The position numbers and the translations under genes were made by a program. Positions 1,642 to 33,852 of a stretch of DNA of 35,522 bases are shown here, in pieces. The notes below the pieces were generated by a model, which saw only the letters and a list, made by a program, of their open reading frames with translations, ran no database searches and was not told the origin of the DNA. The first letter of the stretch is position 1. Every line of letters begins with the position of its first letter. The DNA is from a virus. The stretch spans positions 1 to 35,522 of IMG/VR virus record IMGVR_UViG_3300034190_003502; one strand, written 5' to 3'.

Positions 1642-2134
1642 GACGATTTTCCTCTAGTTCTCTCCACTCACGAACCATATTTCTATATGTTTTGTTAGTT
1701 CGTGCTGCGTCATACACACGCTTAAAAATGCGTGCCGACTCTGCTTTGTCACAAGTGAAGTGATCCTCTGCTTGTGGTTTGATTCTTCCTCTGTTGTCAT
1801 ATTTTTTACCATCGCGGTGATTGGCATAGCGTCTTGCTCGCGTCCATCCCATCATCAAGAATTTGCGAGCCATGTCCGCACCAACAAAGTCCCCCACGCG
1901 AAGATATTCATCAAACATAGAATATATTTTAGTCGCGGAGTTGAAAGCCACTTCTGGAGTCCTGAATCTCCAGTGTTTACAGATTTCAGATTTGTATGGT
2001 TCAACTAACAATACTCCTTGCTCTCCCCGACCGATGATATACAACTCGGGGTTCTTGCGATAATCAATGTTATCAAAATCTAACGTGTAATCAAATTCAA
2101 TCAAAACAGTGTCGCCCTTCGTTCGTGATCCCAT
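1613..2134 (-). CDS. DUF4385 family protein
   Basis: This 173-residue protein matches what I know of DUF4385, a family common in T4-like cyanophages. Diagnostic stretches are NPELYIIGRGEQGVLLVEPY, KHWRFRTPEVA and DMARKFLMMGWTRARRYANH. Its function is unknown; the conserved Arg/His/Trp residues suggest nucleic-acid or nucleotide binding, but nothing visible proves it. The ATG at 2134 overlaps gp43 by 34 nt. A TTG at 2104, overlapping the gp43 stop, would begin the protein just before the conserved FDYTLDFDN stretch and has GAAGGGC about 10 nt upstream, so the real start may be there. It is probably co-translated with gp43. Confidence 0.85.
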   Translation of the reverse strand: MGSRTKGDTVLIEFDYTLDFDNIDYRKNPELYIIGRGEQGVLLVEPYKSEICKHWRFRTPEVAFNSATKIYSMFDEYLRVGDFVGADMARKFLMMGWTRARRYANHRDGKKYDNRGRIKPQAEDHFTCDKAESARIFKRVYDAARTNKTYRNMVREWRELEENRHGNVTYKKS

Positions 2135-4599
2135 CCTACCTTTTCCAGAATATTTTTCAACGGCTCAAGAAAAGAAACTGCAAACTGTTTGTTGTAGTCG
2201 GCAAAATCACTAAGTTCAAACTCTGATGGAGCAGTACCGGGAAAAGATATCACCGTGTTATGAAAAGGATTTGGTGCTTTTAGATACAAAAACTTTACTT
2301 TGTCTCCCTCATTCACTTTGTAATACTTGTTTTCAAGTTTCATGTTTTGAAGAAAGTGATTGTAGATCAAAGCACCCTTCACAGCAATCGGCGTGCCTTT
2401 TCTGTAAATATTTGTTGTGTCTTGATATGTGTGCAAGTTATTACACCCACGGGGAAATGCAATCTCCTCTGGCGAATATGTGGAAAACTCTTTCTTAAAG
2501 TTTGCAATAAAATCAATCACCTGATCTTCTGTTCCCGTCAGCACCAACTTGATTGCATCTTTCAACTTTTGTCGAACGACTTGTGGTGTCGATGATCGCG
2601 TGGTTTCGATGCCCATAATCTTCATCTTGGGTTCATCGTATTGCACACCCTCAGAGTTATGCACGTTGAGCATATATCGTTTCTTGGCAGTCCAAACTCC
2701 AACATCGGCAATGACTTCTCGCTCCATCACCATCTTGTTGGAATATGCGTTCATTTTTGCTGCGAGGGTTTCGTAGCATTTGTTGATGAACGGCTCAATG
2801 ACCTCCGTGCAGGACTTGTCAAGAAATCGTACGATCTCCTCTTTGGTTTTGTTTTGAGCAGTAGCCCCAACAAGGTTCCCAAGGCGAAGATAAACAGAGT
2901 CGGTATCACTTGCGACAACATAATCATAGTCTCCTGTGTTTAGTGTTTTATTCAAAAAAGCATTTAGTTTGTTTGCGATATATTGAATCGATAGTTGACC
3001 CGAGGTCGTGATCGCCTCCGCCAGATTGATATCAAAGTACCGGAAGTATTGATTGCCCATCGCACCATAGGCTGAGTTCAGTTGAATCTTTCTCACCAGT
3101 TGAAAGTTATGATATTTTGAAATCTCAAAGTCCAGACTTTCATCGTCTGGATTCTGTTGCTTTTTCTTCTGGGCTTCGATCATCAACTTCTTGTAGTGTT
3201 TGCGTTCTGCGTAAAACTTCTCCATCAGTTCCGGCATGAAGCCAAGCCGATCTTTACGGAAGCAAACGCCATTGGCTGCGACCGAGAAGTTTTGCTCTTT
3301 TAGTTTTGTAAGATTCTTTTCACAAAGATCAGTTTCCCCAAGCACACCATCAACATCAATACACGGATTTCTTGGGAACCCATCTGGTTTCATTTTTGTA
3401 TCAGGAGAGATATTGTATTGCATGATAAGATGCGGATACAGACTATTAAGGTCGAAGGACACAACCCAGTCATGCCGACCAGTAATCGGCTCCTTCACAT
3501 ATGCACCAATGATTTGATTCTCTTTCTTGCCGCCATTTTTCTTACGAGGAATCACGATATCTTTCGCACGCAAATGGTGATAGATGATCTGATCCCAAGT
3601 TCGAACCTGAGAAAACACATCGGCAAGATTGACCTTTGCCGTGTACGCCAAGGCAAGTGCCAGTTCAAGAAGACCAAGTTTCTTTTCAAGTTTTTCGATC
3701 AGACGAACATCTTGAACATTGTATTCAACGAATCTCTGAAAGTCGTTAGTGTAAAAGTCTTTGAAGTGATCAAAGCCACTCTCCAACTTTCTTTCCCCAA
3801 GTTCAACAAAAGCGATGTGATCCAACTTGTAAGACTCTTGGTTCACATAAGTAAATTTTTGATACAAGTCAAAGTAGTCAAGGATGGTGATGCCAACCAT
3901 CTCATACGCGATGCGATCACCCGCTTGTGTTTGGATATCTCTCTTACGAACCCAACGCCACGGAGAAAGTTCCTGCGCACGCCGCTCAATAATTCTGTCC
4001 ATGCGACAGAAGAGATATGGGATATCAAAAAACTTTACGTTCCAGCCCGTGACAATATCAGGATCAACCTCTTTCCAGACCTCAAGAAAATCAAGCAAAA
4101 GAGATCTTTCATCATCAAACTTTCGGGCATCAATACTTTCGTCGAGTTCAAACTCACCCAAGCCAAACACATAAGTTTTTCCGTCAACGACCAACGTGAT
4201 CACATTCACTGTTTCGTTTGGATTTGTGACTTGAGGGAAACCATACTCACTGGTGGTTTCGATATCAAGATATGCGACTTTGACAGTTTTCTTATCGTAG
4301 TTTACCTCATCTGGAAACTTGTCACCGATAAACTGGTAAATGTAATCTGTGTTGCCGTAGATCTGGAATCCCGTGACACTTTCATGACGATCAATAAAGT
4401 CTCTACAATCGGACATCAATCCCGGCTTGATTGGCTCGACCGAATGACCGTGAAGAGTGTGATATTTTGATGATTTGTTGGATGAGACAAAAAGAGTGGG
4501 GTGATAATCGATACCACCCTCAACTCTTTTGCCATTCTCATATCCTCGATAGAGGATCTTCTCTCCACGAATATTTACATTTGTGTAGAACCGACTCAT
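2101..4599 (-). CDS. 43: T4-type family B DNA polymerase gp43
   Basis: This 832-residue replicative DNA polymerase has proofreading 3'-5' exonuclease and polymerase domains. Exonuclease motifs are YLDIETT (D112/E114, the same numbering as T4), TGWNVKFFDIPYL (D192) and YNVQD (D297). Polymerase motifs are DLNSLYPHL (D383), KIQLNSAYGAMGN (504-516) and ASDTDSVY (D565/D567). All catalytic acids are present and no intein is seen. It is shorter than T4 gp43 (898 residues), like marine relatives. The C-terminus RRATLF resembles the short hydrophobic tail by which T4-type polymerases bind the sliding clamp. A strong GGAGG lies 12 nt before the ATG. Unlike in T4, about 20 kb of other genes separate it from regA. 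Confidence 0.98.
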   Translation of the reverse strand: MSRFYTNVNIRGEKILYRGYENGKRVEGGIDYHPTLFVSSNKSSKYHTLHGHSVEPIKPGLMSDCRDFIDRHESVTGFQIYGNTDYIYQFIGDKFPDEVNYDKKTVKVAYLDIETTSEYGFPQVTNPNETVNVITLVVDGKTYVFGLGEFELDESIDARKFDDERSLLLDFLEVWKEVDPDIVTGWNVKFFDIPYLFCRMDRIIERRAQELSPWRWVRKRDIQTQAGDRIAYEMVGITILDYFDLYQKFTYVNQESYKLDHIAFVELGERKLESGFDHFKDFYTNDFQRFVEYNVQDVRLIEKLEKKLGLLELALALAYTAKVNLADVFSQVRTWDQIIYHHLRAKDIVIPRKKNGGKKENQIIGAYVKEPITGRHDWVVSFDLNSLYPHLIMQYNISPDTKMKPDGFPRNPCIDVDGVLGETDLCEKNLTKLKEQNFSVAANGVCFRKDRLGFMPELMEKFYAERKHYKKLMIEAQKKKQQNPDDESLDFEISKYHNFQLVRKIQLNSAYGAMGNQYFRYFDINLAEAITTSGQLSIQYIANKLNAFLNKTLNTGDYDYVVASDTDSVYLRLGNLVGATAQNKTKEEIVRFLDKSCTEVIEPFINKCYETLAAKMNAYSNKMVMEREVIADVGVWTAKKRYMLNVHNSEGVQYDEPKMKIMGIETTRSSTPQVVRQKLKDAIKLVLTGTEDQVIDFIANFKKEFSTYSPEEIAFPRGCNNLHTYQDTTNIYRKGTPIAVKGALIYNHFLQNMKLENKYYKVNEGDKVKFLYLKAPNPFHNTVISFPGTAPSEFELSDFADYNKQFAVSFLEPLKNILEKVGWDHERRATLF

Positions 4600-11228: not shown

Positions 11229-12326
11229 TTACCTCGTTTCGTAAGTTACAAACATTTGTGCCTGTGTAGAGCCAGAGGCGTTACTAATAACATCAAAGAA
11301 CAAAAACCCACCAGCCGTGACCGATGTGTTATTGAGTAGGGTGGATGATCCTGTAGTGCCTTCAATTCCTAGCGTTCCACCAGTCAACGAACTTGTGGCT
11401 GGATTCCCAAAATCAGGTCCGGCGATAATTGCACCTGCCGTGAATCCACCAGAGCCATTCACCTTCACATCAATATTTGTAAGTGTTGCGTTATAGGGGA
11501 ACCTATGCAATGAATCTGTTTTTTGTCCGGTTGCAATAGCCGACGAAGCAGAGATTGTAAATGTTGCAACACCATTCGCCACACCCAAGACATCACCAGT
11601 GGCTCCGTTGAAAGATTTTACGGTAAATTTACTAAGTTTTATAAACTCCATAGGAGTATCACCTGCAAATACCGTAAGATTGCTTTCATTGACAAGAAGG
11701 GAGGGGTCCGTAGAATCGCCCCCAGCACCGCCAGCCGCCAATATTGTGGTTGGGAATGAATAAGTTAGTGGTTCAAACGGTCCAGAACCAAAGCCCGATC
11801 CGGGCTTTCCTATCTTAAATGTATTTGTCGTGCTAATGTTGGCAAGACCACCATGTGAAGTAATTCCACCTGACGCAGAGATACCAGCAACTTGTATTGT
11901 GAGATCAGTTGTGCTGACTGCACCAGTAAGACCGTTGAAAGAGTTTACACCTTCAATATTACCAGTGGCTCCATTGAAAGTATTTACACCCTCAACCGCC
12001 CCGGTTGCTCCATTGAAAGATGCAACAAACTCATCAACGGGACCAGTTGCCCCTGTCGCACCAACGGCTCCAGTAGCACCAGTGGCTCCCGTAGATCCAG
12101 TCGATCCTGTCGATCCAGTCGATCCGGTGGCTCCTGTGTCACCAGTAGATCCTGTAGATCCTGTATCACCAGTGGAGCCTGTCGTGCCTGTTGCACCAGT
12201 CAATCCAAGCGGCAAAAGATTAAAGACTGTGCCATTCCACTCCCAAACCTTCGTGCCTACACCAAAGGTGGAGCCGACTGTCGGAGTTGATGCAGTTGTG
12301 CCAGAAGTAGGAAACTTAAAGGACAT
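11229..12326 (-). CDS. Collagen-like tail-fibre protein with FNGxTG repeats
   Basis: This 365-residue protein has a short N-terminal domain ([20 protein letters not shown] ... VWEWNGTVF), typical of marine phage fibres. Then come 19 uninterrupted Gly-X-Y triplets (residues 41-97), 17 with Thr in the Y position (GAT, GST, GDT). Next are three F-N-G-x-T-G repeats (near 104, 118 and 130) and a fourth near residue 240, and a C-terminal beta-rich domain ending MFVTYETR. The collagen stretch should form a trimeric rod and the C-terminus a distal head. The Thr-rich GXT triplets resemble O-glycosylated collagen-like proteins of Bacillus exosporium. A glycosyltransferase gene lies immediately upstream with a 1-nt overlap. 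Confidence 0.88.
12036..12206 (-). repeat. Collagen-like GXT codon repeat
   Basis: Nine-base periodic DNA encodes 19 Gly-X-Y triplets inside the fibre gene (residues 41-97). The near-identical units make the tract prone to slippage and length change, which could vary fibre length. It is coding sequence, not a CRISPR array or an intergenic repeat. Confidence 0.9.
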
Positions 12327-13624
12327 TACCTAACCTTTTTCTTTTTGCCTCTCCTTTTATTTATCTTAACTTCTGCCTCTTTTTGTTTCCTAATTTCAGC
12401 CCTACGCATTTTATCTTCGATTTCAGCCTTCGCTTTCAAGGCTTCGTTTTGCTGATGTTTTTGCTGCTGCTCCTCAAGCCAATTTGCATAGTGTCGGAAA
12501 TTGTTTACGATTCTCTCTTCTTGTTCTTTTGCAAATTTCTTTTCAGAAAGGAGTTTGTTGCTAGCCTCAAGACCAGCCATCATGTCTCCAGCATAAAAAG
12601 CCACAGAGGCAAGTTCGTCCCAACACATCCATCCGTAGATATCAGCGTTCAAGAAAAGAATATCTTGATGGGGATACGGAATCTTCACAGCCTGTTGTGC
12701 AAACATATACGCCAGCCTTGGGTTTCCATTTTCTCTATGGATTCTGGCAAGTTGATACAAAGGTTCAGATCTATGTGGTCGCATGTTCCACGCTTGGAGG
12801 AAGTGGTCTTGAGCCTGCTCCCACGGCTTATTGAGAAGACATTTGCAGATTGCCACTCGATAGACTGAATACCAAACTTCTTCTTCCCATCCACCCATCT
12901 CAGCACGCTTTTGATACCACTCTAGTGCTTTTTCAAATTCCTGTGCGTCAAACCAAGATTGAGCGGCGTAAAAAGTGTAACGATGATTTTCGGGTTCGTA
13001 GTTTTCGTTTTCTGGATTTGTCAAACAATCAATCAAAGTTTCGGCATCTTTTGAATATTTTGCCTTTTGATCGTCCTTGAATTCTTTGGTTCGATTACCC
13101 ATCGTTCTGGCTTCGATATGATAATCGCCACCAATTTTATCGAGTGTAGCCTCACCCAAGCCTTGATCTCGTTTGCCTACGCAGTCTGCGTATTCGTGAA
13201 TAACACCTTTGTATTCCCAGCCAAGACCCGTTTTAAACATTTGATGTCTCCACCAGTTGAAGTCGCCTCGGTGAATCCAAAGTGCATACGCATCATGCTC
13301 TCCAAAATTTTCTGGGTATTTAAAATTACCCTCGACTATATCATCAGCGTCGATGACCCAAGCGTAGTCTGCCTTTCCGTCACAGTTTCTTAGAGACTGA
13401 GTTCTTGACTTACCAAAACCTTGCCATGGAATATCGTGTACCTCACCCGGAATACCTTTCTCTTCAAAGAATTCCTTGATGATTTCTTTTGTTTTGTCGG
13501 TTGATCCGGTGTCAGAGATGTCGTACCGATCAATATACGGAGCCATTGACTCAAGGCATTCACGAATGATATGCTCTTCATCTTTAACAATCATACACAA
13601 AGTTACAGTAGGTCTTTTACTCAT
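12326..13624 (-). CDS. Family 2 glycosyltransferase with TPR-like C-terminal region
   Basis: This 432-residue protein begins with a GT2 domain: [19 protein letters not shown] (8-26), [12 protein letters not shown] (37-48), and a metal-binding DADD (92-95). Helical repeats of TPR character follow around 215-350 ([31 protein letters not shown]). The tail is strongly basic and Lys/Glu rich (about 380-432). Related GT2-TPR proteins glycosylate peptides or polysaccharides. It ends 1 nt into the collagen-like fibre gene, which makes that Thr-rich protein an attractive substrate, but this is inference. A GATAAATA motif lies 39 nt upstream. No membrane segment is seen. Confidence 0.87.
12358..12365 (-). 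promoter_or_regulatory. Candidate late promoter GATAAATA before the collagen-like fibre gene
   Basis: GATAAATA lies 32 nt upstream of the fibre ATG, inside the Lys-rich tail of the GT2 gene. It is a 7-of-8 match to the T4 late consensus, and late expression is expected for a fibre. The Lys-rich coding sequence makes chance AT-rich matches more likely. Confidence 0.4.
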
Positions 13625-13634
13625 AATATTCCTT

Positions 13635-14375
13635 TCAAAGTGACCACAAGTTGTCGCTTAGGTATTTATCTAAAACAATTCGGTCTTTATGACACTCATA
13701 GATTTTTTGAAAATGTTTGATTTGTGGGATTTGTTTGTGTTGCTCATTTTCATTTAGACCGTATCTTTTGAATTTCTCTGCCGATCCGCCTTTTGTGTAC
13801 CAACTTTCGTGATAAGATCTTACCCACTTTCCCATGTCATAAAATGTCATGCCCGTCATAAAGATTTCTTTGACCTCGTACATTAACATAAGAAGAACAC
13901 CGTTGTACCCTGTATTTGGTAGACACGTTTCCTCGCCGCCCTGACTTGCTATGAACTTCCTAAGACCATTTTCTCCCTCAAAAACTTCTGATGAAACTTG
14001 ATGATATGGAACACCAACATCCTTCAAAAAATCACCAGTTTTTTCGTAGAGATCTCCGGGTGTTTGTGCGCAAATCAAACACTCACATTTTTTCATATCA
14101 TAGTAATCGTCTTCTGTGAACGAGTTCATGTCGTGATCGTTATAACTATGCACGATTATATCAGTTCTGCTACCGTAGTCTTTTGCGACATCATCTCCAC
14201 GAAGAATGTCACCAGTTCGAACCACCAAATCATAAGAGTCAATTTTTTCCCCGTAACCAGTGTCAACATTTTGAGGTGCAGGACCGACGTATGCAATTCT
14301 TTTATCTTTCAGAAGACTAGCGAGGTTCTCGTCTTTAACATAGTTTTCTCCAAGTGGTTTTTCAATCCAATCCAT
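13635..14375 (-). CDS. GT29-like (sialyltransferase-family-like) glycosyltransferase
   Basis: This 246-residue protein shows a pattern like the GT29 sialylmotifs. The L-like part is RIAYVGPAPQNVDTG then GEKIDSYDLVVRTGD (26-56). The S-like part is CLPNTGYNGVLLMLMYEVKE then IFMTGMTFYDM (151-181), followed by a candidate catalytic His (H189 in RSYHESWY). GT29 enzymes use CMP-activated sugars. A CMP-sugar synthetase-like gene lies about 4 kb upstream in the same gene run, so a CMP-sugar donor is plausible. No membrane anchor is present, unlike eukaryotic members. It overlaps the cyclase gene by 14 nt. Assignment rests on motif likeness and needs a structure-level comparison. Confidence 0.68.
   Translation of the reverse strand: MDWIEKPLGENYVKDENLASLLKDKRIAYVGPAPQNVDTGYGEKIDSYDLVVRTGDILRGDDVAKDYGSRTDIIVHSYNDHDMNSFTEDDYYDMKKCECLICAQTPGDLYEKTGDFLKDVGVPYHQVSSEVFEGENGLRKFIASQGGEETCLPNTGYNGVLLMLMYEVKEIFMTGMTFYDMGKWVRSYHESWYTKGGSAEKFKRYGLNENEQHKQIPQIKHFQKIYECHKDRIVLDKYLSDNLWSL
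13663..13670 (-). promoter_or_regulatory. Candidate late promoter GATAAATA before the GT2-TPR gene
   Basis: GATAAATA lies 39 nt upstream of the GT2-TPR start, inside the end of the GT29-like gene. It is a 7-of-8 match to the T4 late consensus TATAAATA. It would place this transferase and the fibre genes after it under late expression. Confidence 0.4.
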
Positions 14376-15426
14376 GTTTAATTAGTTCCTTCCACTCAGT
14401 GATGAGATTTTTTACGGTGTCATCTTTAGTCATGTTTTTTACGAACATAACCCCTGCCCTTTCGCAGAAGATAAATCTGTAATCAGTTTTAGTGTTCTTT
14501 TTGTCCTTTTTCAGATAGGTAATCATATCATCAATGCTTAAATTTTCAATACAAAAAGTTTTATAAATTTTAGACATAATCTTATTATACTTTTTGTAAT
14601 CATCCTCACTCATAAAGCCCTGAGTGTATGAGATATAATTAGCACAGTCCATGCCATATGCCACTGCGATCCCATGAGGAATTGCGTTGTTCAACGCACC
14701 CTCTATTGCATGACCAAATGAGTGACCATAATTCAAAATGATTCTTTCTCCCGTGTCAAACTCATCATTCTCAATGAATTTTTCTTTGATTGATAAGCAT
14801 CTTGAGATCAACTTTAAGATTGGTGTCTCACCCGAAAAGCATTTTTTAAATAAAGACAAACTATCATCACCAGCGATCATCACATAATGAAGTAGTTCAC
14901 CAAACCCAGACATTCTTTGTTCTTCTGACAAGGTGTCAAGGAATGTAACATCAATATAAACGGCACTCGGTGGATAAAAATTACCTAAAGTATTTTTGTA
15001 TCCCGCAAAGTTAATAGATGTTTTTGATCCAATGCAACTATCCCCTTGGGACAATAAGGTTGTGGGAATAAATACCCATTCAATCCCACGGAACAAAATC
15101 GAGGAAACAAAAGAGGTGACATCTTGTGTGACACCACCACCCATGGCAACAAGTTTTGTTCGCCTTGTTACACCGAGATCCAAAAGTTTTTCAATAAGTT
15201 CTTTTGCACCATCATATGACTTTTGCCATTCAGACGCGGATAACTTTACAAAATTGACTGCATCAAAAAAGTCTTTTCGTGAGTCGTAAAGATAATCATC
15301 AATTACAAAAATGACCTCTTCATCTCGATACTTCTCAATGACTTTTTTATGATCACAAAAATTAACAAAGTAATCTTTGATTGAAGAGTTGATTTCAATA
15401 TCACTCACAGAGAAATCCTCCATCAA
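14362..15426 (-). CDS. Dehydroquinate-synthase-like sugar phosphate cyclase
   Basis: This 354-residue protein belongs to the AroB/sugar phosphate cyclase superfamily. It has the NAD-binding GGGVTQDVTSF (96-106), then PTTLLSQGDSCIGSKTSIN (121-139) and KNTLGNFYPP (144-153). Metal ligands expected from DHQ synthase are present: E177, H235 and H251. The lysine three residues after the metal-binding Glu in DHQ synthases (AEviK) is His180 here (GELLH), and GVTQDVTSF differs from the usual GVIGDLAGF. These changes and the neighbours argue against shikimate synthesis. More likely it cyclises a sugar phosphate to a keto-cyclitol for a surface sugar. Substrate is unknown. It overlaps the SDR gene by 26 nt. 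Confidence 0.85.
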   Translation of the reverse strand: MMEDFSVSDIEINSSIKDYFVNFCDHKKVIEKYRDEEVIFVIDDYLYDSRKDFFDAVNFVKLSASEWQKSYDGAKELIEKLLDLGVTRRTKLVAMGGGVTQDVTSFVSSILFRGIEWVFIPTTLLSQGDSCIGSKTSINFAGYKNTLGNFYPPSAVYIDVTFLDTLSEEQRMSGFGELLHYVMIAGDDSLSLFKKCFSGETPILKLISRCLSIKEKFIENDEFDTGERIILNYGHSFGHAIEGALNNAIPHGIAVAYGMDCANYISYTQGFMSEDDYKKYNKIMSKIYKTFCIENLSIDDMITYLKKDKKNTKTDYRFIFCERAGVMFVKNMTKDDTVKNLITEWKELIKHGLD

Positions 15427-16105
15427 CGACTATGTTCTGTCCGGTGATGTAGGTATTTTGATCGCCACACAAGAACATGACAGCGTTTGCCATCTCCTCA
15501 GTAGTACCAAGTCTACCCATTGGCACTCTACCTTCAACTTCACAAATGCCCTCTTCACCTAAAACTTTTTGGGTCAAGTCTGTTTTTGTAAATCCGGGTG
15601 AAACTGCATTCACCAAAACACCATGCTTCGCTAGTTCAAGAGAAAGAGTTTTTGTCATGCCGATAAGACAAGACTTTGACATGGTATAAAGAAGTCTATG
15701 CTCTCTTGAAACGACCCCGTAGATAGACGATATGTTCACGATTCGTCCATAGCCTCTTTGACGCATATTTTTCGCAACAATTTGACTAATTTTGAATGGT
15801 GCTTTGACATTCACCGACATGAGTGTTTCATAGTCCTCATCGGTAAATTCATCAAACGGTTTTACGATGTTAATGCCTGCGTTGTTGATGCAAATGTCAA
15901 AGTCCATGTCACGAATTTTTTCATAAAAACGCTCACAAGAATTTTTGTTTGTAAAATCAACCTGAAAAAACTCATTCGACTCACCTGTTGTGCAAGTGCC
16001 AAAAACGTAAGCACCTTTACGTTTCATCATATCGAAAATCTTTTTACCGATGCCTCTTGATGCACCTGTTACCAAGACCGCTTTTCCATTCAAGTTCATC
16101 GCCAC
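15401..16105 (-). CDS. Short-chain dehydrogenase/reductase (FabG-like)
   Basis: This 234-residue classical SDR has the cofactor motif TGASRGIG (13-20), NNAG (74-77), the catalytic Ser in ISSIYG (S126/S127) and YTMSK (Y140, K144). The C-terminus ITGQNIVVDGGF is typical of the family. Length is normal. Overlaps and proximity to the cyclase, HAD, SIS and aminotransferase genes suggest it oxidises or reduces a ring or sugar intermediate of the same pathway, rather than acting in fatty-acid synthesis. Coenzyme preference cannot be read with confidence. It lies 3 nt after the HAD gene. Confidence 0.93.
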   Translation of the reverse strand: MAMNLNGKAVLVTGASRGIGKKIFDMMKRKGAYVFGTCTTGESNEFFQVDFTNKNSCERFYEKIRDMDFDICINNAGINIVKPFDEFTDEDYETLMSVNVKAPFKISQIVAKNMRQRGYGRIVNISSIYGVVSREHRLLYTMSKSCLIGMTKTLSLELAKHGVLVNAVSPGFTKTDLTQKVLGEEGICEVEGRVPMGRLGTTEEMANAVMFLCGDQNTYITGQNIVVDGGFLCE

Positions 16106-16108
16106 CTC

Positions 16109-16420
16109 TTACACACAATTTTCAAAGTAGTTGTCAGCGTTATCGGCTTTATCATCAATATAGACATCTGCGGAAAACTTCACTCCGACTCGGAGATCGT
16201 GATAATGAACGCCCCACGCTTCTAATTGTTTCAATGTGATATCAGTCCAATCTTTACCCCGTGTCGCACCGCTACCTCTAGCGGTATCAATGATAATAGT
16301 ATGACCAGCATCATACAAATCATTCACATGTTTGATTCTTTTCACAAAAGGCTTTGCGTTTTCGTAATCTAAATCTTGTTGGGAACACAAAGTTCCATCG
16401 AGGTCAAAACAATAAATCAC
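16109..16420 (-). CDS. Small HAD-family phosphatase-like protein
   Basis: This 103-residue protein shows HAD motif I, FDLDGTLC (5-12, D6 and D8), a motif II-like IIDTARGS (about 43-50) and a motif IV-like ADVYIDDKADN (about 84-94). No cap domain is present, so it may act on a larger or protein-bound phosphate, or pair with a partner. Small HAD proteins of this kind occur in capsule and LPS gene clusters beside GmhA-like SIS genes, as here; the ATG overlaps the SIS stop by 4 nt. It could dephosphorylate an intermediate in the neighbouring sugar or cyclitol pathway. Substrate is unknown. Confidence 0.83.
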   Translation of the reverse strand: MIYCFDLDGTLCSQQDLDYENAKPFVKRIKHVNDLYDAGHTIIIDTARGSGATRGKDWTDITLKQLEAWGVHYHDLRVGVKFSADVYIDDKADNADNYFENCV

Positions 16421-16983
16421 GCAGTGCCATACTTTCTCACAAGTTCAGCCTTGATAGTTGGACACTTATGACCAAGATTGTAGACCATTTCGTAGAAACA
16501 CATGACAGAAAGAATTTCGTGCGTATGGAAGTAATCAGTCTCAAAGTTAACCTCTGGGATGTTTGGATCGAGGCAGTTTGATTGTGATCCCGAAATCAAA
16601 CCTGCGTTCCAATTATGTCTTTCATTTGCCCAATGCAAAGCAGAGATGACATTCTTAGAGTTTCCCGATCCAGAAAATCCTACCACCATACCCTTTTCGT
16701 TGGGATTAACGTAGTGTTCAAGCCAATTGGTAAAGATGTTTTCATAACCAAAATCGTTTGCGATTGAGGTGAGAAGTGATGGGCTGTCAAGACAATAAAC
16801 TCGTTTGTCTGTCAATCTTGTAATATCAGCGGCGGCGTGACTTGCCACTGCCATGTTGCCACCATTACCAAGGACATACACGGCTTCTGCATCTTTGATG
16901 CCCTGAATAATTTTAGACCACTCTTTAGTAGAAATACCCTTCTTAAATTTTTCTTCAAGATTTTCAAATGGTGCGTTTTTCAT
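16417..16983 (-). CDS. SIS-domain protein related to phosphoheptose isomerase, altered active site
   Basis: This 188-residue protein is of GmhA length and has the phosphosugar-binding loops GNGGNMAVASHAAADI (39-54) and GFSGSGNSKNV (102-112). In GmhA a Glu near the first helix and a His in the C-terminal Q-E-x-H motif do the isomerisation. Here the matching places read D53 and HEIL (155-158), so the usual His appears replaced by Leu. It may therefore be a divergent isomerase or a sugar-phosphate-binding protein rather than a sedoheptulose-7-phosphate isomerase. It is followed by the HAD gene (4-nt overlap) and preceded by the class III aminotransferase. AAGGGAACATGAA lies before the ATG. Confidence 0.85.
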   Translation of the reverse strand: MKNAPFENLEEKFKKGISTKEWSKIIQGIKDAEAVYVLGNGGNMAVASHAAADITRLTDKRVYCLDSPSLLTSIANDFGYENIFTNWLEHYVNPNEKGMVVGFSGSGNSKNVISALHWANERHNWNAGLISGSQSNCLDPNIPEVNFETDYFHTHEILSVMCFYEMVYNLGHKCPTIKAELVRKYGTA

Positions 16984-18146
16984 TTCATGTTCCCTTTCGT
17001 TTGTTGCATGGAAATATTTAGAATTTTCAAAAAGGTGTTGATTTCATTTCTATCAACGGCAAGATTTGGTCTAACCCTCAATGTCCTTTCGCCAGCCATA
17101 TTACAGATGGCTCCGTTGTCTTTAAGTCGTTGTAGTAGTTTACCTCTAAACTCATTACTTTCAACATCAAAAGCGATCATTAGTCCTTTTCCTCTTGCAT
17201 TTTCTACGCCATCAATTGATCGAAGTTCTCCGATCAAAATTTCACCCATGTCCTTTGCATTTTCCAAGAGGTTTCCTCTTCTATACGCTTTCATAATGTA
17301 AGTGCCGCGAAGCATATCAACTAAGTCACCGTCAAAAGTTACACAAAGTCTATGATCCAAGCCAGATGAATATTTTTCTGATGTCATCACACCAGATACC
17401 TGTGTTTTTTTACCAAAGGCAACGATGTCAGGTTTAATATCAAAGTGTTCAAAACACCAAACTTTTCCAGTTGTCCCGAATCCTGTTTGCACCTCATCAT
17501 AAATCACAGGGACATCAAATTCCTTTGACACCTTACTAACGTCCTGCAAAAAATCTTTTGGCAAATGATTATCACCGAAGGTTGATTGAATAGGCTCAAC
17601 CAAGACACCAGCGATGTCACCTCTTGACAACTCTGCCTTGAGTTCTTCAATGGTGCTTACCTTTGCCCAATCAAAGTCAGGAAATCCTGATAATCTTTCT
17701 GCGACAATACCAAAATGACTGGTCGCAAAATTTCCATATCCAGCGGTTCCGTGAAAACTATTATCAATAGCAATCATACGTTGTTTTTTGGTGTGATACA
17801 TCGCAAGTTTACACGCACTCTCAACGGCTAAGGAGCCTGTGCAAGTAAAGTGATACTTATCAAACAATCCCACCCCCGCAAGGTCATGAAAGTGTTGACA
17901 GAAATTTTGTCGAACATCACTATCAAACTCACAGTTTGTTGTTTTGACTGATGCCAAGTATTTCAGTTGTTTGTAAAAAGACTCATCGAACACTGGGTGG
18001 TTATATCCGAGTGGAAGAGAGGAATACATTCCAAAAAAATCTAGAATGTTTTTATTTGTGTTTTTATCAAACAAAAAAGAACCATGACTTTTTTCAAAGT
18101 CTAGGCAAATGTTCCAGAATGTCGCATCATTAAATTTTGTAGACAT
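16980..18146 (-). CDS. Class III PLP aminotransferase
   Basis: This 388-residue fold-type I PLP enzyme has FTCTGSLAVESACKLA (100-115), SFHGTAGYGN (130-139), VEPIQS (183-188), the pyridine-N-binding Asp in IYDEVQTGFG (D217) and the Schiff-base region AFGKKTQVSGV (243-253, K246 or K247). The FGKKTQV form resembles the lysine 6-aminotransferase subgroup more than typical acetylornithine enzymes. In this setting it more likely aminates a keto-sugar or keto-cyclitol made by the neighbouring cyclase and SDR. It overlaps the CMP-sugar synthetase-cupin gene by 17 nt and the SIS gene by 4 nt. The physiological acceptor is unknown. Confidence 0.9.
   Translation of the reverse strand: MSTKFNDATFWNICLDFEKSHGSFLFDKNTNKNILDFFGMYSSLPLGYNHPVFDESFYKQLKYLASVKTTNCEFDSDVRQNFCQHFHDLAGVGLFDKYHFTCTGSLAVESACKLAMYHTKKQRMIAIDNSFHGTAGYGNFATSHFGIVAERLSGFPDFDWAKVSTIEELKAELSRGDIAGVLVEPIQSTFGDNHLPKDFLQDVSKVSKEFDVPVIYDEVQTGFGTTGKVWCFEHFDIKPDIVAFGKKTQVSGVMTSEKYSSGLDHRLCVTFDGDLVDMLRGTYIMKAYRRGNLLENAKDMGEILIGELRSIDGVENARGKGLMIAFDVESNEFRGKLLQRLKDNGAICNMAGERTLRVRPNLAVDRNEINTFLKILNISMQQTKGNMK
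17015..17021 (-). promoter_or_regulatory. Candidate late-type promoter CTAAATA before the SIS gene
   Basis: CTAAATA lies 32 nt upstream of the SIS ATG, inside the 3' end of the aminotransferase gene. It could start an internal transcript covering SIS, HAD, SDR and cyclase. Evidence is motif and spacing only. Confidence 0.3.
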
Positions 18147-19263
18147 GTGCTACATCCGCTCTACTCACTGCAAGACGGGCGGCAGGTTTATCGCCAATAC
18201 AAGTAATTTTGTGCCACTTGTTTTTTGGAATGTAAACAATGTCGCCTTGCTTCACCGTGTGGTCAACACCTTCGATTTCAAAGTTCCATTTACCCTTTAG
18301 AATATACCACCATTCATTCCAAGAGTGATGGTAGTGCCTTCTGTTTCCCTCTCCGGGTTTCTGATGGATGACACAACAACTGTTACTTTCACTATTCACA
18401 ATTCTCTTGATCCAAGATGAATCATCACCCTCTCTTTCAAGAAGTTCAGGAATGTTTGTAATCAGATTATTTTCATCGTCATAGTTTTCATTTTTCACAC
18501 CATCATCTCTAATGATTGTAGGGACATCTCTTTCTTCGTGGATGCCGCTATGAAGTCTTGGGTCATAGTATTCTGGATCAACATAAGACTGCATGTGCCG
18601 ACTACCCATGATTTGCTCCGCGAGGGAAAAGTCATCTACGGTGTCAATGTCAACTGTTGCAAATCCAGAAAGTGTGTAAAACCCTGTTTTCCCACTACCA
18701 CCGTGATATCCAGAGTCATACTCGGAAATATTTTCTTTAAACTTTTCAGACTTCCATGCCATCAAGCCACACGCATATGCCTTTACGGGGGTCAGTGATT
18801 GTGATGGCGGTGTTTTTTCTTTTTGCTTGAAGTTTAGTGGTTTATTTTCATACATGCACTCGATCTGCACATCGGTGGTTGAAATCAGCGTGTCATAATC
18901 ACCGTCGTTCATCATTTCAAAAAATTCAATAATATGTGCTGCCTCGATAAATGGTGACGTTGCCAAAAATTGATACAAAGTATCACACTTTACGTTATTG
19001 ATAAAGTCAAGAACAAAGTCATCATTCGTGGCTTCGTCTGTTGAAAGAGCGTCAGGTCTTTTGTAAAACTTGATACCATAGTCATCAGCGATAGTTTTCA
19101 TGATGTCTGACTCTGAGTTCAAATAGATCTCATCAAAAACGCCAGACCGCTTAACGGCATCGATGATGTAACCGATCAATGGTTTGCCATTGATCAATCT
19201 AAGATTTTTATTGTGGACTCTTTTACTTCCAAGCCTCGCTGGGATCATCGCAACATTTTTCAT
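18130..19263 (-). CDS. CMP-sugar synthetase-like cytidylyltransferase fused to a cupin
   Basis: This 377-residue two-domain protein is unusual. Residues 1 to about 230 match acylneuraminate/KDO cytidylyltransferases: IPARLGSKRVHNKN (7-20), NGKPLIGYIIDAV, then LYQFLATSPFIE. This domain would activate a sugar with CTP. Residues about 290-377 form a cupin with HYHHSWNEWWYILKG (310-324) and GDIVYIPKNKWH (340-351), giving His310, His312/313, Glu317 and His351 as metal ligands. Cupins in sugar loci often epimerise or isomerise. The fusion suggests that modification and activation of one sugar are coupled. It overlaps the GT gene upstream by 4 nt and the aminotransferase downstream by 17 nt. Confidence 0.88.
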   Translation of the reverse strand: MKNVAMIPARLGSKRVHNKNLRLINGKPLIGYIIDAVKRSGVFDEIYLNSESDIMKTIADDYGIKFYKRPDALSTDEATNDDFVLDFINNVKCDTLYQFLATSPFIEAAHIIEFFEMMNDGDYDTLISTTDVQIECMYENKPLNFKQKEKTPPSQSLTPVKAYACGLMAWKSEKFKENISEYDSGYHGGSGKTGFYTLSGFATVDIDTVDDFSLAEQIMGSRHMQSYVDPEYYDPRLHSGIHEERDVPTIIRDDGVKNENYDDENNLITNIPELLEREGDDSSWIKRIVNSESNSCCVIHQKPGEGNRRHYHHSWNEWWYILKGKWNFEIEGVDHTVKQGDIVYIPKNKWHKITCIGDKPAARLAVSRADVAHVYKI

Positions 19264-20519
19264 AAAATATTCTCCAAAGAATTTATAAATCTATTTCGTT
19301 TTTCATAATCAGTCGTATATCTCAACCAGACTGACATTATAGTTGGAACAAACATATTGTCAACATCACAGTAACCAACAGGATGCCACATATGAAGTGC
19401 CTCTGCCTTTTCATCATGACAATATAATGCACCGTTTCCAGCATGATGAACATTTTGTTGTTTTAGATTTGGATTATTTTTTAGTTCAAGTTTACTCCAA
19501 AAAATTGAATCTTCTGGTGCGTAGCCATAAACAATTTGTGGATCAAACCCACCAACCGAAAGCATGTTCTCTCTTCTAATCGCAAGAGATCCACCGGGGG
19601 CTTTTAGATCAGCCATTGGTGGAATATGACTACCACCCTGTGTTTTGGGAACATAATCCAACAAATCCACTTGTTCCCCCTTTGAGTATTGTGTCACAAG
19701 TTTTGTGGTTTTTTTCTCCGACATGTAAATCACACGCCCACCGTAAAATGGTTGATACCAAGTTGGGCTATTTTGGTTTTCGATTCCACTAATGAACTCC
19801 TCGGTCACAAGAAGGTCAACATCGTGATTCACTTGCCATTCAAAATTCATCTCACGAAGAACGTGATTGAAGCATAGTGATTTATTCATGAACATGTCAG
19901 TGTTGTAAATCGGGTGGCGTTTCGGTGTTCTATACGCAGAGAAATTTTTGAAACCTAACTTTTTACTTAATGAAACGGTGCTTTCGTAAATCGGATCGTC
20001 CGAGTTTTCTTGAATATAAAAAGTCAGATTCCAGTCGGGTCTATCTTTGAGTAATCTGTATAAATTTACCAAAAGAGTATTAGCGTGATTTAATCTAATC
20101 TTTTGATTGTCATTTTCCCTGATAGGAACAACAATATTATATTTTCCAGTGACGTTGGTGTTGTAACGATCCGCTTTGATCAAATCATAATTTATTGGTT
20201 TACGACGAAGGCTAAGAACTCTATCAATGTAATTTCTATCATTGACTTCAATGTGTTTGAAAAAAGATAGAGGATCAATGTTTCCCCATAAGATCCCGGT
20301 CAATACACCGAACATCGAAAACTCACGGTCGCCTTTTTCTAATAGCCTACCTTTTGATTTTGAGTACCACCTTTGAGAATCACCAATAATTGGCGCACTA
20401 GAAAGAAAGCGTTGCAAATCCTCTTGATTTGCATTCATAAACATATGGTGCATGAAAGTTTTTAAATGTTCATGTCCCTGCCTGTTTAGAGTCTCAATCT
20501 CATTGAGATTTTGCGTCAT
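19260..20519 (-). CDS. GT-A glycosyltransferase with galactosyltransferase-like C-terminal motif
   Basis: This 419-residue protein has a GT2/GT7-like GT-A domain after about 125 N-terminal residues of unknown role. The domain shows YNIVVPIREND (127-137), the metal-binding HDVDLL (232-237) and a C-terminal acceptor-site motif PGGSLAIRRENMLSVGGFDP followed by YGYAPEDSIFW (308-341). The GGFD...PED pattern is shared with chondroitin-polymerase and beta-galactosyltransferase-like enzymes. The start at 20519 has GAGG 8 nt upstream and overlaps the epimerase gene by 20 nt. It ends 4 nt into the CMP-sugar synthetase gene. Donor and acceptor are unknown. Confidence 0.87.
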   Translation of the reverse strand: MTQNLNEIETLNRQGHEHLKTFMHHMFMNANQEDLQRFLSSAPIIGDSQRWYSKSKGRLLEKGDREFSMFGVLTGILWGNIDPLSFFKHIEVNDRNYIDRVLSLRRKPINYDLIKADRYNTNVTGKYNIVVPIRENDNQKIRLNHANTLLVNLYRLLKDRPDWNLTFYIQENSDDPIYESTVSLSKKLGFKNFSAYRTPKRHPIYNTDMFMNKSLCFNHVLREMNFEWQVNHDVDLLVTEEFISGIENQNSPTWYQPFYGGRVIYMSEKKTTKLVTQYSKGEQVDLLDYVPKTQGGSHIPPMADLKAPGGSLAIRRENMLSVGGFDPQIVYGYAPEDSIFWSKLELKNNPNLKQQNVHHAGNGALYCHDEKAEALHMWHPVGYCDVDNMFVPTIMSVWLRYTTDYEKRNRFINSLENIL

Positions 20520-26611: not shown

Positions 26612-27558
26612 TCAACACACTCTCTTTTCATTGACTCGTAGATACTATCATCATAGCCGCCACCAGTCCACATCTTTTTACCTTCATTCACACCAGTAAG
26701 TTCTGAGTAAACTGCTTCGTCAGGACAAGAAACCTCTTCATCAAATAAAAGTTTTGAGTAAAGTGACCATCTTCCCAAAGCCCATTTGAGGTATCCTAAA
26801 TTATGATTTACCAGTGGAGAGGATCTACCTTTTTCGAAAGCAAGACCACTGCCTACGCCAGCAAAATGAACGATTTTGTTTCCGACGTTAAAGTGAACAT
26901 TATTTTCAAATCCGTTGTCTAAAGACCCTTCGTGGGTTGTGCTGCCCCAATCCTTTTCACAAAGATATTTTACTTTTCCTCCTGCGTCAATGATAGAGAA
27001 AGTGACTGGATCAAAAAAGTCAAGAACTTCTCTGCCTGTTGGATCAACTCGTCCGTGACACATTTGTATAAAAAGTGAAAACTCTTGTTCTGGAATCTTT
27101 GTTGAATCCACACCAAAGGCGTAAGTTGAAATGGCATCAGGATGATTAGCATACTGTTTGTGACCACCTAAATTATGTTTATAGGCTCTCATCGGACCTG
27201 CGGCAGCATAACCATTATTTAAATGTTCGACGATTTCATCAATGCAGTTTTGTTTAAACAAAACGTCAGAGTCAAAGTGAATTATCTTTTTACCTGCACC
27301 CCAAAATCGAATGGCAGAGGCAAACGCAAGAGCCGTTCCTGCATGACCATGCTCCCAAAATCTATTGAAGTTTTGATCATCGGTGACATCAATCACCACG
27401 ACCTTTGGATTCTCCAAGACAGATCCCGCCTCTTCGATATCCTTTTTTGACATTACAATATGGATTGTTTCGTCGTGGTGTTGGAAGTATGAATCTAAAA
27501 ATGGGATCAGTAGTCTACCACAATTGAAAGCCTCGGTAAAAACAAAGAGGTCGCTCAT
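26608..27558 (-). CDS. GT-A fold glycosyltransferase-like protein between gp44 and gp62
   Basis: This 316-residue protein has the features of a GT-A transferase: LFVFTEAFNCGRLLIPFLDS (4-23), GKKIIHFDSDVLF with a DxD at 96-98, and downstream aromatic-rich loops (FFDPVTFSIIDAGGKVKYLC). I cannot assign a CAZy family. Its ATG overlaps gp44 by 4 nt and its stop overlaps the UGDH-like start by 4 nt, so it is expressed with the clamp loader. The pair with a nucleotide-sugar dehydrogenase suggests that it might use a UDP-uronic acid. No membrane segment or signal peptide is visible. Confidence 0.75.
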   Translation of the reverse strand: MSDLFVFTEAFNCGRLLIPFLDSYFQHHDETIHIVMSKKDIEEAGSVLENPKVVVIDVTDDQNFNRFWEHGHAGTALAFASAIRFWGAGKKIIHFDSDVLFKQNCIDEIVEHLNNGYAAAGPMRAYKHNLGGHKQYANHPDAISTYAFGVDSTKIPEQEFSLFIQMCHGRVDPTGREVLDFFDPVTFSIIDAGGKVKYLCEKDWGSTTHEGSLDNGFENNVHFNVGNKIVHFAGVGSGLAFEKGRSSPLVNHNLGYLKWALGRWSLYSKLLFDEEVSCPDEAVYSELTGVNEGKKMWTGGGYDDSIYESMKRECVE

Positions 27559-28496
27559 TTAAACATCGCCTCCATCATGATCTCGGTTAGACATGCCATC
27601 ATGTTGATCTCTGAATCAGCGACGAAAGCAGCCTTGTATTGATAGTTTGCCAAAATCAAGATGACCGCAGGGACAGACTGGGGCTTCAAGTAATCACTCA
27701 AGCCGTCATAAATTTTTCGATAGATTTCAGACTCATCATTGTTTGAGTTATCCACTACCCATCGACGCAACTTCGTGAACTCTTTGTTCTTCAAAATTTC
27801 CATCAAGGAATGAACACCCACATCACCAATCTCAGACAAGATGCCCGTATCGATGATTCCAGTCGCAGAATATCTCTGACACTCATTCAAGATTCGTCGC
27901 CAGTCGGGGCTGTGACGCATGATCAGTCTTGCGATAACTCTACCATCATACTCCACATTTTCGTCCGTTAGGATTTTCTCAAGTCTTTGCAAAAACTTGG
28001 AACCCATTTTCATTTGCTCTTCTTTGCTAAACTTGAAGTCAATACAAGTGCATCGGGAGTGTAGAGGCTCAATGATTCTGTTCTTAAAATTACAAGTCAG
28101 GACAAATCTACAGGTTGCAGAAAACTCTTCGATAAACCCACGAAGTGCTGGCTGAAAACTATTTGCGTTGGCATAGTCAAACTCATCAAGGATCACCACC
28201 TTTTTCCCTGCAATCAACGATTGTGTTGAGGCAAAGTCACGAATCCTTGTTCGTAGAGTGTCGATGTTGCCATCCTCCGAGCAGTTGATTTTGATGGAAT
28301 CGATACCCATCTCCTCACACATCGCCAGTGCCGCAGTCGTTTTTCCACAACCCGGACCACCAGATAGCATAAGATTTTGCATCTCACCAGAGTCAACAAT
28401 CGCTTGTAGTGTCTCCTTTAATTCCGGCGGCAAAATACAATCTTTGATTGTTTTTGGGCGATACTTTTCCACCCAAAGATATTGTTCTTTCATCAT
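27555..28496 (-). CDS. 44: Clamp-loader ATPase large subunit gp44
   Basis: This 313-residue AAA+ protein of the RFC/DnaX type has an N-terminal LWVEKYRPKTIKD (7-19), Walker A GGPGCGKTT (46-54), Walker B VVILDEFDYAN (100-110), sensor-1 VLTCNF (132-137) and the SRC arginine-finger motif (147-149). It loads the gp45 clamp onto primer-template junctions with gp62. Length is close to T4 gp44 (319). Its ATG overlaps the gp45 stop by 4 nt. Adjacent downstream are two sugar-related genes rather than gp62. Confidence 0.97.
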   Translation of the reverse strand: MMKEQYLWVEKYRPKTIKDCILPPELKETLQAIVDSGEMQNLMLSGGPGCGKTTAALAMCEEMGIDSIKINCSEDGNIDTLRTRIRDFASTQSLIAGKKVVILDEFDYANANSFQPALRGFIEEFSATCRFVLTCNFKNRIIEPLHSRCTCIDFKFSKEEQMKMGSKFLQRLEKILTDENVEYDGRVIARLIMRHSPDWRRILNECQRYSATGIIDTGILSEIGDVGVHSLMEILKNKEFTKLRRWVVDNSNNDESEIYRKIYDGLSDYLKPQSVPAVILILANYQYKAAFVADSEINMMACLTEIMMEAMFK

Positions 28497-29203
28497 AACA
28501 GTCCATTGTAAACAGAGTCACTGGTCACGGCAAGAATATAATTTGCCTCAATATCGGCGTGATTCATCTGAATCGCCAGAGTTTCATGGAGCAAGATTTC
28601 GTAGTCGCCCGGAAGAATCTTCAAGTTTTCTGATTTGATAAAAATCTTGAAGTTACAATTTTGCAACATTTCTTTCGGAGTCACTTCAATTTCATACTTG
28701 TTGGTCGTGTTTGCCTTCTCCTTATCAAATGCCACGATCTTCACCACGCCCTCGTCATTGGTAAACATGATGTCTGGGAGTTGAAGGACGGCAGAGGCTC
28801 TCAGAAGATCTGTGAGTTCTTGCTGTGGCAGATCAAAGGCAACCTTGACCTCTGGCATGGAGAGTTTAGAGGGGGGTCTACAGCCGTCTACGAGCCTCGT
28901 ATCAGCATAGTGGTATTTACAAGACTGGCGACCGGACGTAATCACACAATGATTTTCACCAAACACCACTTCTGCATCACTCAGGAGCGAATATGTGGAC
29001 AAAAATTGATTCAAATCATAGATTGCAAATTCTGTCGGGAAAGTTTCGTCAACTTTTGCTGTGAACATGATGTTTTTCTGTGGGGAAACTGTCACAAGTT
29101 CATTTCCCGGCATCACATGAACATTTGAGTTGATGCCTGCCATGCTTTTCAGAATGGCAACAGTTTGTTTTGTCAAATTCAATCCTTTATCCGTGATCGT
29201 CAT
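28493..29203 (-). CDS. 45: Sliding clamp gp45
   Basis: This 236-residue T4-type processivity clamp (T4 gp45 is 228) is recognised by length, position directly before gp44, and features such as LNLTKQTVAILKSMAGINSN (8-27), YDLNQFLSTYSLL (about 83-95) and FKIFIKSENLKILPGDYEI. It forms a trimeric ring for gp43, and in T4 also for late transcription together with gp55 and gp33. Its ATG overlaps the preceding 60-residue gene by 17 nt. The late-promoter-like motifs in this window would fit clamp-dependent late transcription. Confidence 0.93.
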   Translation of the reverse strand: MTITDKGLNLTKQTVAILKSMAGINSNVHVMPGNELVTVSPQKNIMFTAKVDETFPTEFAIYDLNQFLSTYSLLSDAEVVFGENHCVITSGRQSCKYHYADTRLVDGCRPPSKLSMPEVKVAFDLPQQELTDLLRASAVLQLPDIMFTNDEGVVKIVAFDKEKANTTNKYEIEVTPKEMLQNCNFKIFIKSENLKILPGDYEILLHETLAIQMNHADIEANYILAVTSDSVYNGLL

Positions 29204-33622: not shown

Positions 33623-33852
33623 CCGCCACCCTTTGCTATCATAATTGCTGCCATATAATCATTGGCATCTTTTTCGTTCTTGTAAACTTTCTTTAACTCT
33701 TTTGCGTGTTGTCCACCCGGAGTCATGATACGCTGACGTTTTGTTTTGCCGCCCTTTGTTTTAACAGTTTTGAATTTGTCTGCATAAACACCAAATCCAC
33801 CATCTGGCATTTTACGAACATCCTCATCAATAAACTGCTTGAACGACATCAT
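33619..33852 (-). CDS. Small basic protein with capsid-targeting leader
   Basis: This 77-residue protein begins MMSFKQFIDE-DVRKMPDGG, matching the S-F-x-x-F-I-x-E leader found in its neighbours. The remainder is basic (KFKTVKTKGGKTKRQRIMTP; KELKKVYKNEKDANDYMAAI), which suggests DNA binding or charge packing within the head, like T4 internal proteins. No named family is recognised. Its start overlaps the stop of the large modular gene as TAATG. Confidence 0.65.
   Translation of the reverse strand: MMSFKQFIDEDVRKMPDGGFGVYADKFKTVKTKGGKTKRQRIMTPGGQHAKELKKVYKNEKDANDYMAAIMIAKGGG

Follow-up and report, generated by a model that had tools for sequence, protein, structure and literature searches.

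We analyzed virus record IMGVR_UViG_3300034190_003502 from IMG/VR (the window, meaning this whole stretch of 35,522 bases) and found that seven adjoining minus-strand genes at 13635–19263 probably form a cassette for the biosynthesis and transfer of a carbocyclic sugar activated with cytidine monophosphate (CMP). We put the probability of this reading at about 0.6. It is built on the gene content, conservation and co-occurrence of the module and on the folds and residues of its products, all of which were observed.

A preliminary description, made from the letters of this DNA alone, had reported seven consecutive open reading frames that overlap or abut, and all seven are present. In the direction of transcription, they encode a CMP-sugar synthetase in which a PseF/NeuA-like cytidylyltransferase (residues 1-217) is fused to a cupin (residues ~292-365; 18130–19263, PF02348 and Cupin_2); a class III pyridoxal phosphate (PLP) aminotransferase, nearest to lysine epsilon-aminotransferase (16980–18146, PF00202); a GmhA-related SIS-domain sugar-phosphate protein with altered catalytic residues (16417–16983, SIS_2); a short, optional HAD-type protein (16109–16420); a short-chain dehydrogenase/reductase (SDR), the constant neighbour of the cyclase (15401–16105, adh_short_C2); an AroB-like sugar-phosphate cyclase in which His180 replaces a conserved Lys (14362–15426, TIGR04425 and the N- and C-terminal DHQ_synthase domains); and a glycosyltransferase of the GT29/sialyltransferase fold (13635–14375, PF00777 in its family, and predicted fold). 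Neighbouring genes overlap by 17, 4, 4, 26 and 14 bp; only the HAD and SDR genes are apart, by 3 bp. Five of the seven family assignments of the preliminary description hold at curated cut-offs; that of the HAD protein rests on a motif, a phrog_1238 match and a sub-cut-off EcbF match, and that of the GT29 protein, which alone falls under the Pfam cut-off, on its family and fold. The run of seven was also drawn too narrowly, as the operon extends beyond it by a 4-bp overlap upstream and a 10-bp gap downstream, and too widely, as the HAD gene is not a regular member.

A viral scan with the single cyclase protein gave no match; the GGGxxQD motif, searched for at the DNA level, led to relatives in other phages. 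By this cyclase motif only, 60 phage loci were drawn from IMG/VR, and all 60 encode the cyclase. Among the 26 loci whose cyclase has His at position 180 (His-type), we found the SDR in 23, the SIS protein in 20, the cytidylyltransferase in 20, the aminotransferase in 19, GT29 in 14 and HAD in none, and many of the absences of partner genes coincide with the ends of the stored phage DNA. The 29 loci with Lys at this position (Lys-type) gave 10, 3, 1, 0, 1 and 5 for the same partners. The difference between the two types for SIS, cytidylyltransferase, aminotransferase and GT29 has Fisher probabilities of 2e-9 to 3e-5. After removal of near-copies, the pairwise distances of the cyclase, SDR, SIS protein, aminotransferase and cytidylyltransferase correlate with one another (r 0.29-0.81, p 0.0005-0.04).

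In the nearest relative, phage L147 (cyclase 62%), the GT29, cytidylyltransferase-cupin, aminotransferase, SIS, SDR and cyclase genes are consecutive. Phages L148 and L149, with more than 8 kb of DNA on both sides of the module, have no aminotransferase and keep the SIS protein, the SDR, the cyclase and the cytidylyltransferase-cupin, implying that these four make up the minimal set. The HAD gene adjoins the cyclase gene in one further phage, L143, and with 0 of 26 His-type loci carrying it we rejected it as a core member. In named phage genomes, neither the cyclase nor the cytidylyltransferase-cupin has a specific relative, and nothing there matches a GT29 relative; the best aminotransferase match there was 32% identical, and SIS matches were 28-35% identical over part of the protein.

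We also considered whether the module contains a phosphoenolpyruvate condensation of the NeuB/DAHP-synthase type, where DAHP is 3-deoxy-D-arabino-heptulosonate 7-phosphate. None of 24 phage records matched DAHP_synth_1, and one of 23 His-type records (L143) has NeuB, beside a second cytidylyltransferase gene. This step was rejected, since 22 of the 23 records have no match and the NeuB gene of L143 lies ~8 kb upstream. The NeuB cluster of L143 (9342–13968 of that locus) is separate: it lies just upstream of the module and has a second cytidylyltransferase of its own, and this one phage may make two CMP-sugars.

The Lys-type loci hold other gene sets. In L004, L008, L009, L018, L027, L035, L036 and others, the cyclase and SDR occur with a thiamine-diphosphate enzyme and a ROK-type-kinase-like protein, in several cases also with a NeuB homologue; the cyclases of this set keep 11/11 pocket residues of dehydroquinate synthase (DHQS), and it looks like a different, uncharacterised pathway. 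In L006, L011, L020, L033, L038, L040, L045 and L059, a Lys-type cyclase and SDR are accompanied by a second group of thiamine-diphosphate enzymes, by an opposite-strand HpcH/HpaI-aldolase-like protein, or by both.

The preliminary description had suggested a neighbourhood search in bacteria. Scanning bacterial genomes, we took the best 80 of at least 480 cyclase relatives, from ~20 phyla, and found the core set with the cyclase: an SDR in 73 loci, a SIS protein in 67 and a cytidylyltransferase in 69, accompanied by a Gfo/Idh dehydrogenase and a D-2-hydroxyacid dehydrogenase in 72 each. The cytidylyltransferase is PseF-like in 40 loci and KdsB-like in 29, and no locus has both types. The presence of one type in 69 of 80 loci, never both, makes CMP activation look integral to the module. 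An HpcH/HpaI aldolase and a methyltransferase are frequent additions in the KdsB-like loci, as are YhcH and a PF04199 cyclase in the PseF-like loci; these two exclusive types with different extra enzymes (loci L063-L142) suggest two end products from one core. Four of the 80 loci (L072, L074, L128 and L134) carry the aminotransferase together with the cytidylyltransferase-cupin, the cytidylyltransferase being split into two or more pieces in L072 and L134; a single locus carries GT29. L128 and L134 have Lys-type cyclases, and we dropped His180 as a strict marker of the aminotransferase-bearing module on that account.

We next describe the cyclase. Its best family is TIGR04425 (AroB-related putative sugar phosphate phospholyase, cyclizing), with 367 bits over residues 12-346, under the family cut-off of 400; this family is a hypothetical equivalog without a described reaction or product. 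The score to aroB (TIGR01357) is 260 bits, under the cut-off of 305. The predicted model (mean pLDDT 92) matches DHQS best (5hvn, Z 39.6), followed by DOIS and EEVS (Z 36.5-37.7). The zinc ligands Glu194, His271 and His287 are kept as E177, H235 and H251, and the NAD-site motif GGGxxxD contains D102, so that in fold, zinc ligands and NAD-site motif the protein belongs to the sugar phosphate cyclase superfamily. Of the 11 DAHP-pocket residues listed for Staphylococcus aureus DHQS (PMC6262012), 10 are kept; at the remaining one, Lys181 in S. aureus and Lys197 in Aspergillus nidulans, the phage cyclase has His180. As the preliminary description had stated, the motif reads GGGVTQDVTSF and His180 stands in place of a conserved Lys, which by alignment is Lys in the DHQS, DOIS, EEVS and DDGS references. 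The constraint relieved by this Lys-to-His change could, speculatively, be an additional hydroxyl.

The Lys250 and His275 equivalents are changed in EEVS and DDGS, and the Asn268 equivalent is changed in DOIS, EEVS and DDGS alike. None of the EEVS/DOIS substitutions is present in the phage cyclase, where K214, N232 and H239 are DHQS-like, and at each of these three positions at most one of 133 relatives departs from the DHQS residue. Cys131 is invariant in the 133 relatives and absent from every reference; one of the two bacterial search patterns contained it, the viral pattern did not. The conservation of Gln101 is in part a product of ascertainment, as this residue belonged to the search pattern. 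The preliminary description was right that the protein is not a standard DHQS, by score and by tree, but it understated the likeness of the active site to that of DHQS: in the structural comparison that it proposed with DHQS, EEVS and DOIS, fold and pocket are nearest to DHQS, with the Lys197-to-His difference.

In a quick tree of 92 relatives, the DHQS and other references lie on one side of a branch with a support of 100. On this tree, one change suffices for the Lys/His state. The sister of the window cyclase is that of phage L028 (starred on the tree, 99), inside a larger starred group with cyclases of Bacteroidota, Melioribacteraceae and Pelagibacteraceae. The virus and bacterium labels need nine changes, implying that the cyclase gene moved between viruses and bacteria repeatedly. 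By score, alignment and phylogeny, a shikimate role for the cyclase is very unlikely: the protein falls outside DHQS, and of the curated families the uncharacterised TIGR04425 suits it best.

The cytidylyltransferase-cupin matches CTP_transf_3 (PF02348) with 82.9 bits against a gathering score of 22.6, and Cupin_2 with 63.3 bits; its best PDB match is CMP-Neu5Ac synthetase 1qwj, and its score to the PseF model TIGR03584 is 93.5 bits, under the cut-off of 205.7. The Mg-binding acidic pair D205/D207 and the cupin residues H310, H312, E317 and H351 (HxH..E..H) are invariant in phage relatives. The aminotransferase matches Aminotran_3 (PF00202) with 210.8 bits against a gathering score of 30.5 and PDB entry 2jjf with an E value of 8.8e-47, and K246, the candidate PLP lysine, is invariant in 20 phage copies. 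For the SDR, adh_short_C2 gives 168 bits, and the Asn-Ser-Tyr-Lys set (N99, S127, Y140, K144) is invariant in 37 phage copies. The HAD assignment comes from a DLDGTL motif, phrog_1238 at 83 bits and EcbF (TIGR01689) at 28.7 bits, under its cut-off of 162. The SIS protein is barely above the SIS_2 cut-off (28.3 bits), and its PDB matches are GmhA-like. Compared with Escherichia coli GmhA, the phosphate-site serines are kept, with Glu65 changed to Asp and His180 to Tyr in the window protein and in all aligned phage copies; the score to the gmhA model is 55 bits, under the cut-off of 209. With these catalytic residues replaced, GmhA identity was rejected.

For the last gene of the module, the window protein alone reaches 16.1 bits to PF00777, under the gathering score of 23. 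All 14 scanned members of its family match PF00777 (best 2.3e-13), and the family profile matches ST3Gal1 at 1.6e-9. Further, the top 15 PDB matches of its predicted model (mean pLDDT 80) are all sialyltransferases (Z 14.0, 3.4 A over 205 residues). The modelled structure and family profile together support a glycosyltransferase of the sialyltransferase fold.

From the homologies of these enzymes and the co-occurrence of their genes, we propose the following route. The SIS protein would supply or isomerise a phosphosugar, which the AroB-like enzyme would cyclise as a keto-sugar phosphate by DHQS-type chemistry, with loss of phosphate. The adjacent SDR would oxidise or reduce the ring product, and in phages that carry it the class III aminotransferase would aminate a ketone. 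The cytidylyltransferase-cupin would then add CMP, and the GT29-fold enzyme would transfer the residue, probably as a cap, onto a glycan made by neighbouring glycosyltransferases. Cyclisation, amination and CMP transfer are thus assigned by homology, and the order of the reactions, the carboxylate of the substrate and the acceptor are likewise proposed. The preliminary description had joined the genes into one pathway with amination as a step. That they belong together is borne out by their recurrence in motif-sampled phages and by the core in bacterial loci, HAD not being conserved; amination as a fixed step did not hold, given L148, L149 and the four bacterial loci out of 80 that carry the aminotransferase. 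The two outcomes named there as refuting, a cyclase that is a true DHQS and genes that lie apart with unrelated partners in relatives, were not seen.

The nearly intact DHQS pocket, including the Lys250 and Arg264 positions, makes a DAHP-like keto-acid phosphate a likelier substrate than glucose 6-phosphate, or a hexose phosphate in general, or sedoheptulose 7-phosphate. In the synthetase reactions of Kdo and sialic acid, CMP goes onto a tertiary hydroxyl beside a carboxylate. A quinate-like product would present such a tertiary alcohol beside its carboxylate, a familiar centre for a CMP-ulosonate-type enzyme, and this would explain why the cyclase is paired with the CMP synthetase family. The product possibly carries a carboxylate as in quinate, and it may be aminated in most phages. 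A broader proposal, which we put forward tentatively and with some doubt, is that CMP-activated quinate-like carbocyclic (amino) acids, cyclised in DHQS fashion from a hydroxylated DAHP analogue and moved by sialyltransferase-fold enzymes, form a hitherto overlooked class of activated sugars common to phages and many bacteria, and that on surface or virion glycans the carbocycle stands where a sialic acid would.

Known systems share parts of this set. AroB has the same fold, zinc ligands and 10 of 11 pocket residues as the phage cyclase, but it has Lys197 where the phage has His, has no Gln101/Cys131 signatures and falls in a separate clade, and the operon partners of the phage cyclase are sugar-nucleotide genes, not shikimate genes. 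The carbasugar pathways of EEVS and DOIS (validamycin ValA, butirosin BtrC) likewise combine a cyclase, an aminotransferase and nucleotide activation; they are not known to use CMP for activation or to involve a GT29 enzyme, and the active-site residues of their cyclases differ. The CMP-ulosonic acid pathways (Kdo, Neu5Ac, pseudaminic acid) share CTP_transf_3 and a CMP-sugar-using GT29-fold transferase, whereas the phage module has no KdsA/DAHP-synthase-type gene, has NeuB in the single record mentioned above, and has the cyclase and SDR instead. GmhA shares the SIS fold and phosphate-binding serines and differs in the catalytic Glu65/His180. No description of the pathway was found in the open-licence PubMed Central literature, subscription journals lying outside that scope, which agrees with the earlier claim that no phage pathway with this set is known.

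Three other explanations were weighed. A neutral carbasugar of the validamycin or aminocyclitol type, made from hexose or sedoheptulose phosphate and activated with CMP later, would fit the closeness of the solved DOIS and EEVS structures, the heptose phosphates suggested by a GmhA-like SIS protein and the aminotransferase of most phages; we nevertheless consider it unlikely, because the cyclase keeps the DHQS residues at the Lys250, Asn268 and His275 equivalents, where DOIS, EEVS and DDGS differ (all three at Asn268, EEVS and DDGS at Lys250 and His275), and because the phage SIS protein is without the GmhA catalytic residues. It is very improbable that unrelated sugar genes have simply gathered in a plastic phage island. 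The island does hold many further sugar genes that vary between relatives, but those occur in 0-9 of the 26 His-type loci and the module genes in 14-25; the order of the module genes is shuffled among phages while their membership is kept, and the core persists in bacterial loci. Least credible, to the point that we give it almost no weight, is a phage-borne shikimate DHQS that boosts aromatic synthesis in the host and lies in a sugar island by chance. The retained pocket (11/11 in Lys-type phage relatives) and the DHQS-nearest fold speak for it, against which stand the sub-cut-off aroB score beside the higher TIGR04425 score, the separation of DHQS references from all 92 relatives, the invariant Cys131 that DHQS does not have, and the gene clusters identified around the cyclase, which include an SDR and no shikimate family.

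Several points weigh against the CMP-activated carbocycle itself. Its reactions are assigned by homology, and to our knowledge the attachment of CMP to a carbocyclic ring is not known from any enzyme. The loss of the GmhA catalytic Glu/His pair makes an isomerase role of the SIS protein uncertain, and GT29 shows weak co-inheritance in the set without near-copies (p 0.04-0.13). The Lys250 and Arg264 positions presumably bind the carboxylate in DHQS; the published list gives only pocket residues. Finally, Gfo/Idh and D-2-hydroxyacid dehydrogenases above cut-off were found in 0 of 23 phage records, with control genomes positive. With both dehydrogenases missing from these records, the phage route is either shorter or dependent on host enzymes; the keto-acid may come from host enzymes, or the phages may make a different product. 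A heptose route via GmhA, Gfo/Idh and 2-hydroxyacid dehydrogenase was for the same reason kept merely as an idea.

The surroundings of the module are those of a T4-like phage. T4-type replication genes lie at both sides of the sugar island: a DNA polymerase at 2101–4599, and the clamp loader gp44 (27555–28496) and sliding clamp gp45 (28493–29203). The closest relatives of this gp44 are in marine Synechococcus myophages (54% identity). Between the polymerase and the clamp genes, ~22 kb of sugar genes (4947–26611) include GT10, GT11 and GT2 transferases, a UDP-sugar dehydrogenase, epimerases and a second aminotransferase. Directly upstream of the module, a probable glycosyltransferase gene (19260–20519, minus strand, no Pfam hit) appears translationally coupled to it through the 4-bp overlap; directly downstream lies a glycosyltransferase-like gene (12326–13624, minus strand, phrog_13126 at 82.7 bits). 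Each of the two occurs in 0 of 26 His-type relatives. The latter adjoins a collagen-like, tail-fibre-type protein gene in the same direction, two genes downstream of the module (11229–12326), whose product may be a glycan acceptor. At 33852–35492, a DUF5824 protein (75.8 bits) partially matches a phage cytidyltransferase family.

Taken together, the cassette is common to dozens of phages and to surface-sugar loci of many bacterial phyla, and probably builds, activates and attaches an unusual carbocyclic sugar. If true, the TIGR04425-type family would gain a role, namely the synthesis of CMP-activated carbocyclic sugars destined for glycans of the cell surface or virion, in ~20 bacterial phyla and dozens of phages, sugar-phosphate-cyclase chemistry would reach beyond antibiotics and shikimate to surface glycans, and sialyltransferase-fold enzymes would have a new donor. 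It would also account for the 5-6 kb of biosynthetic genes found in phages, and would warn against taking phage AroB homologues for shikimate auxiliary metabolic genes.

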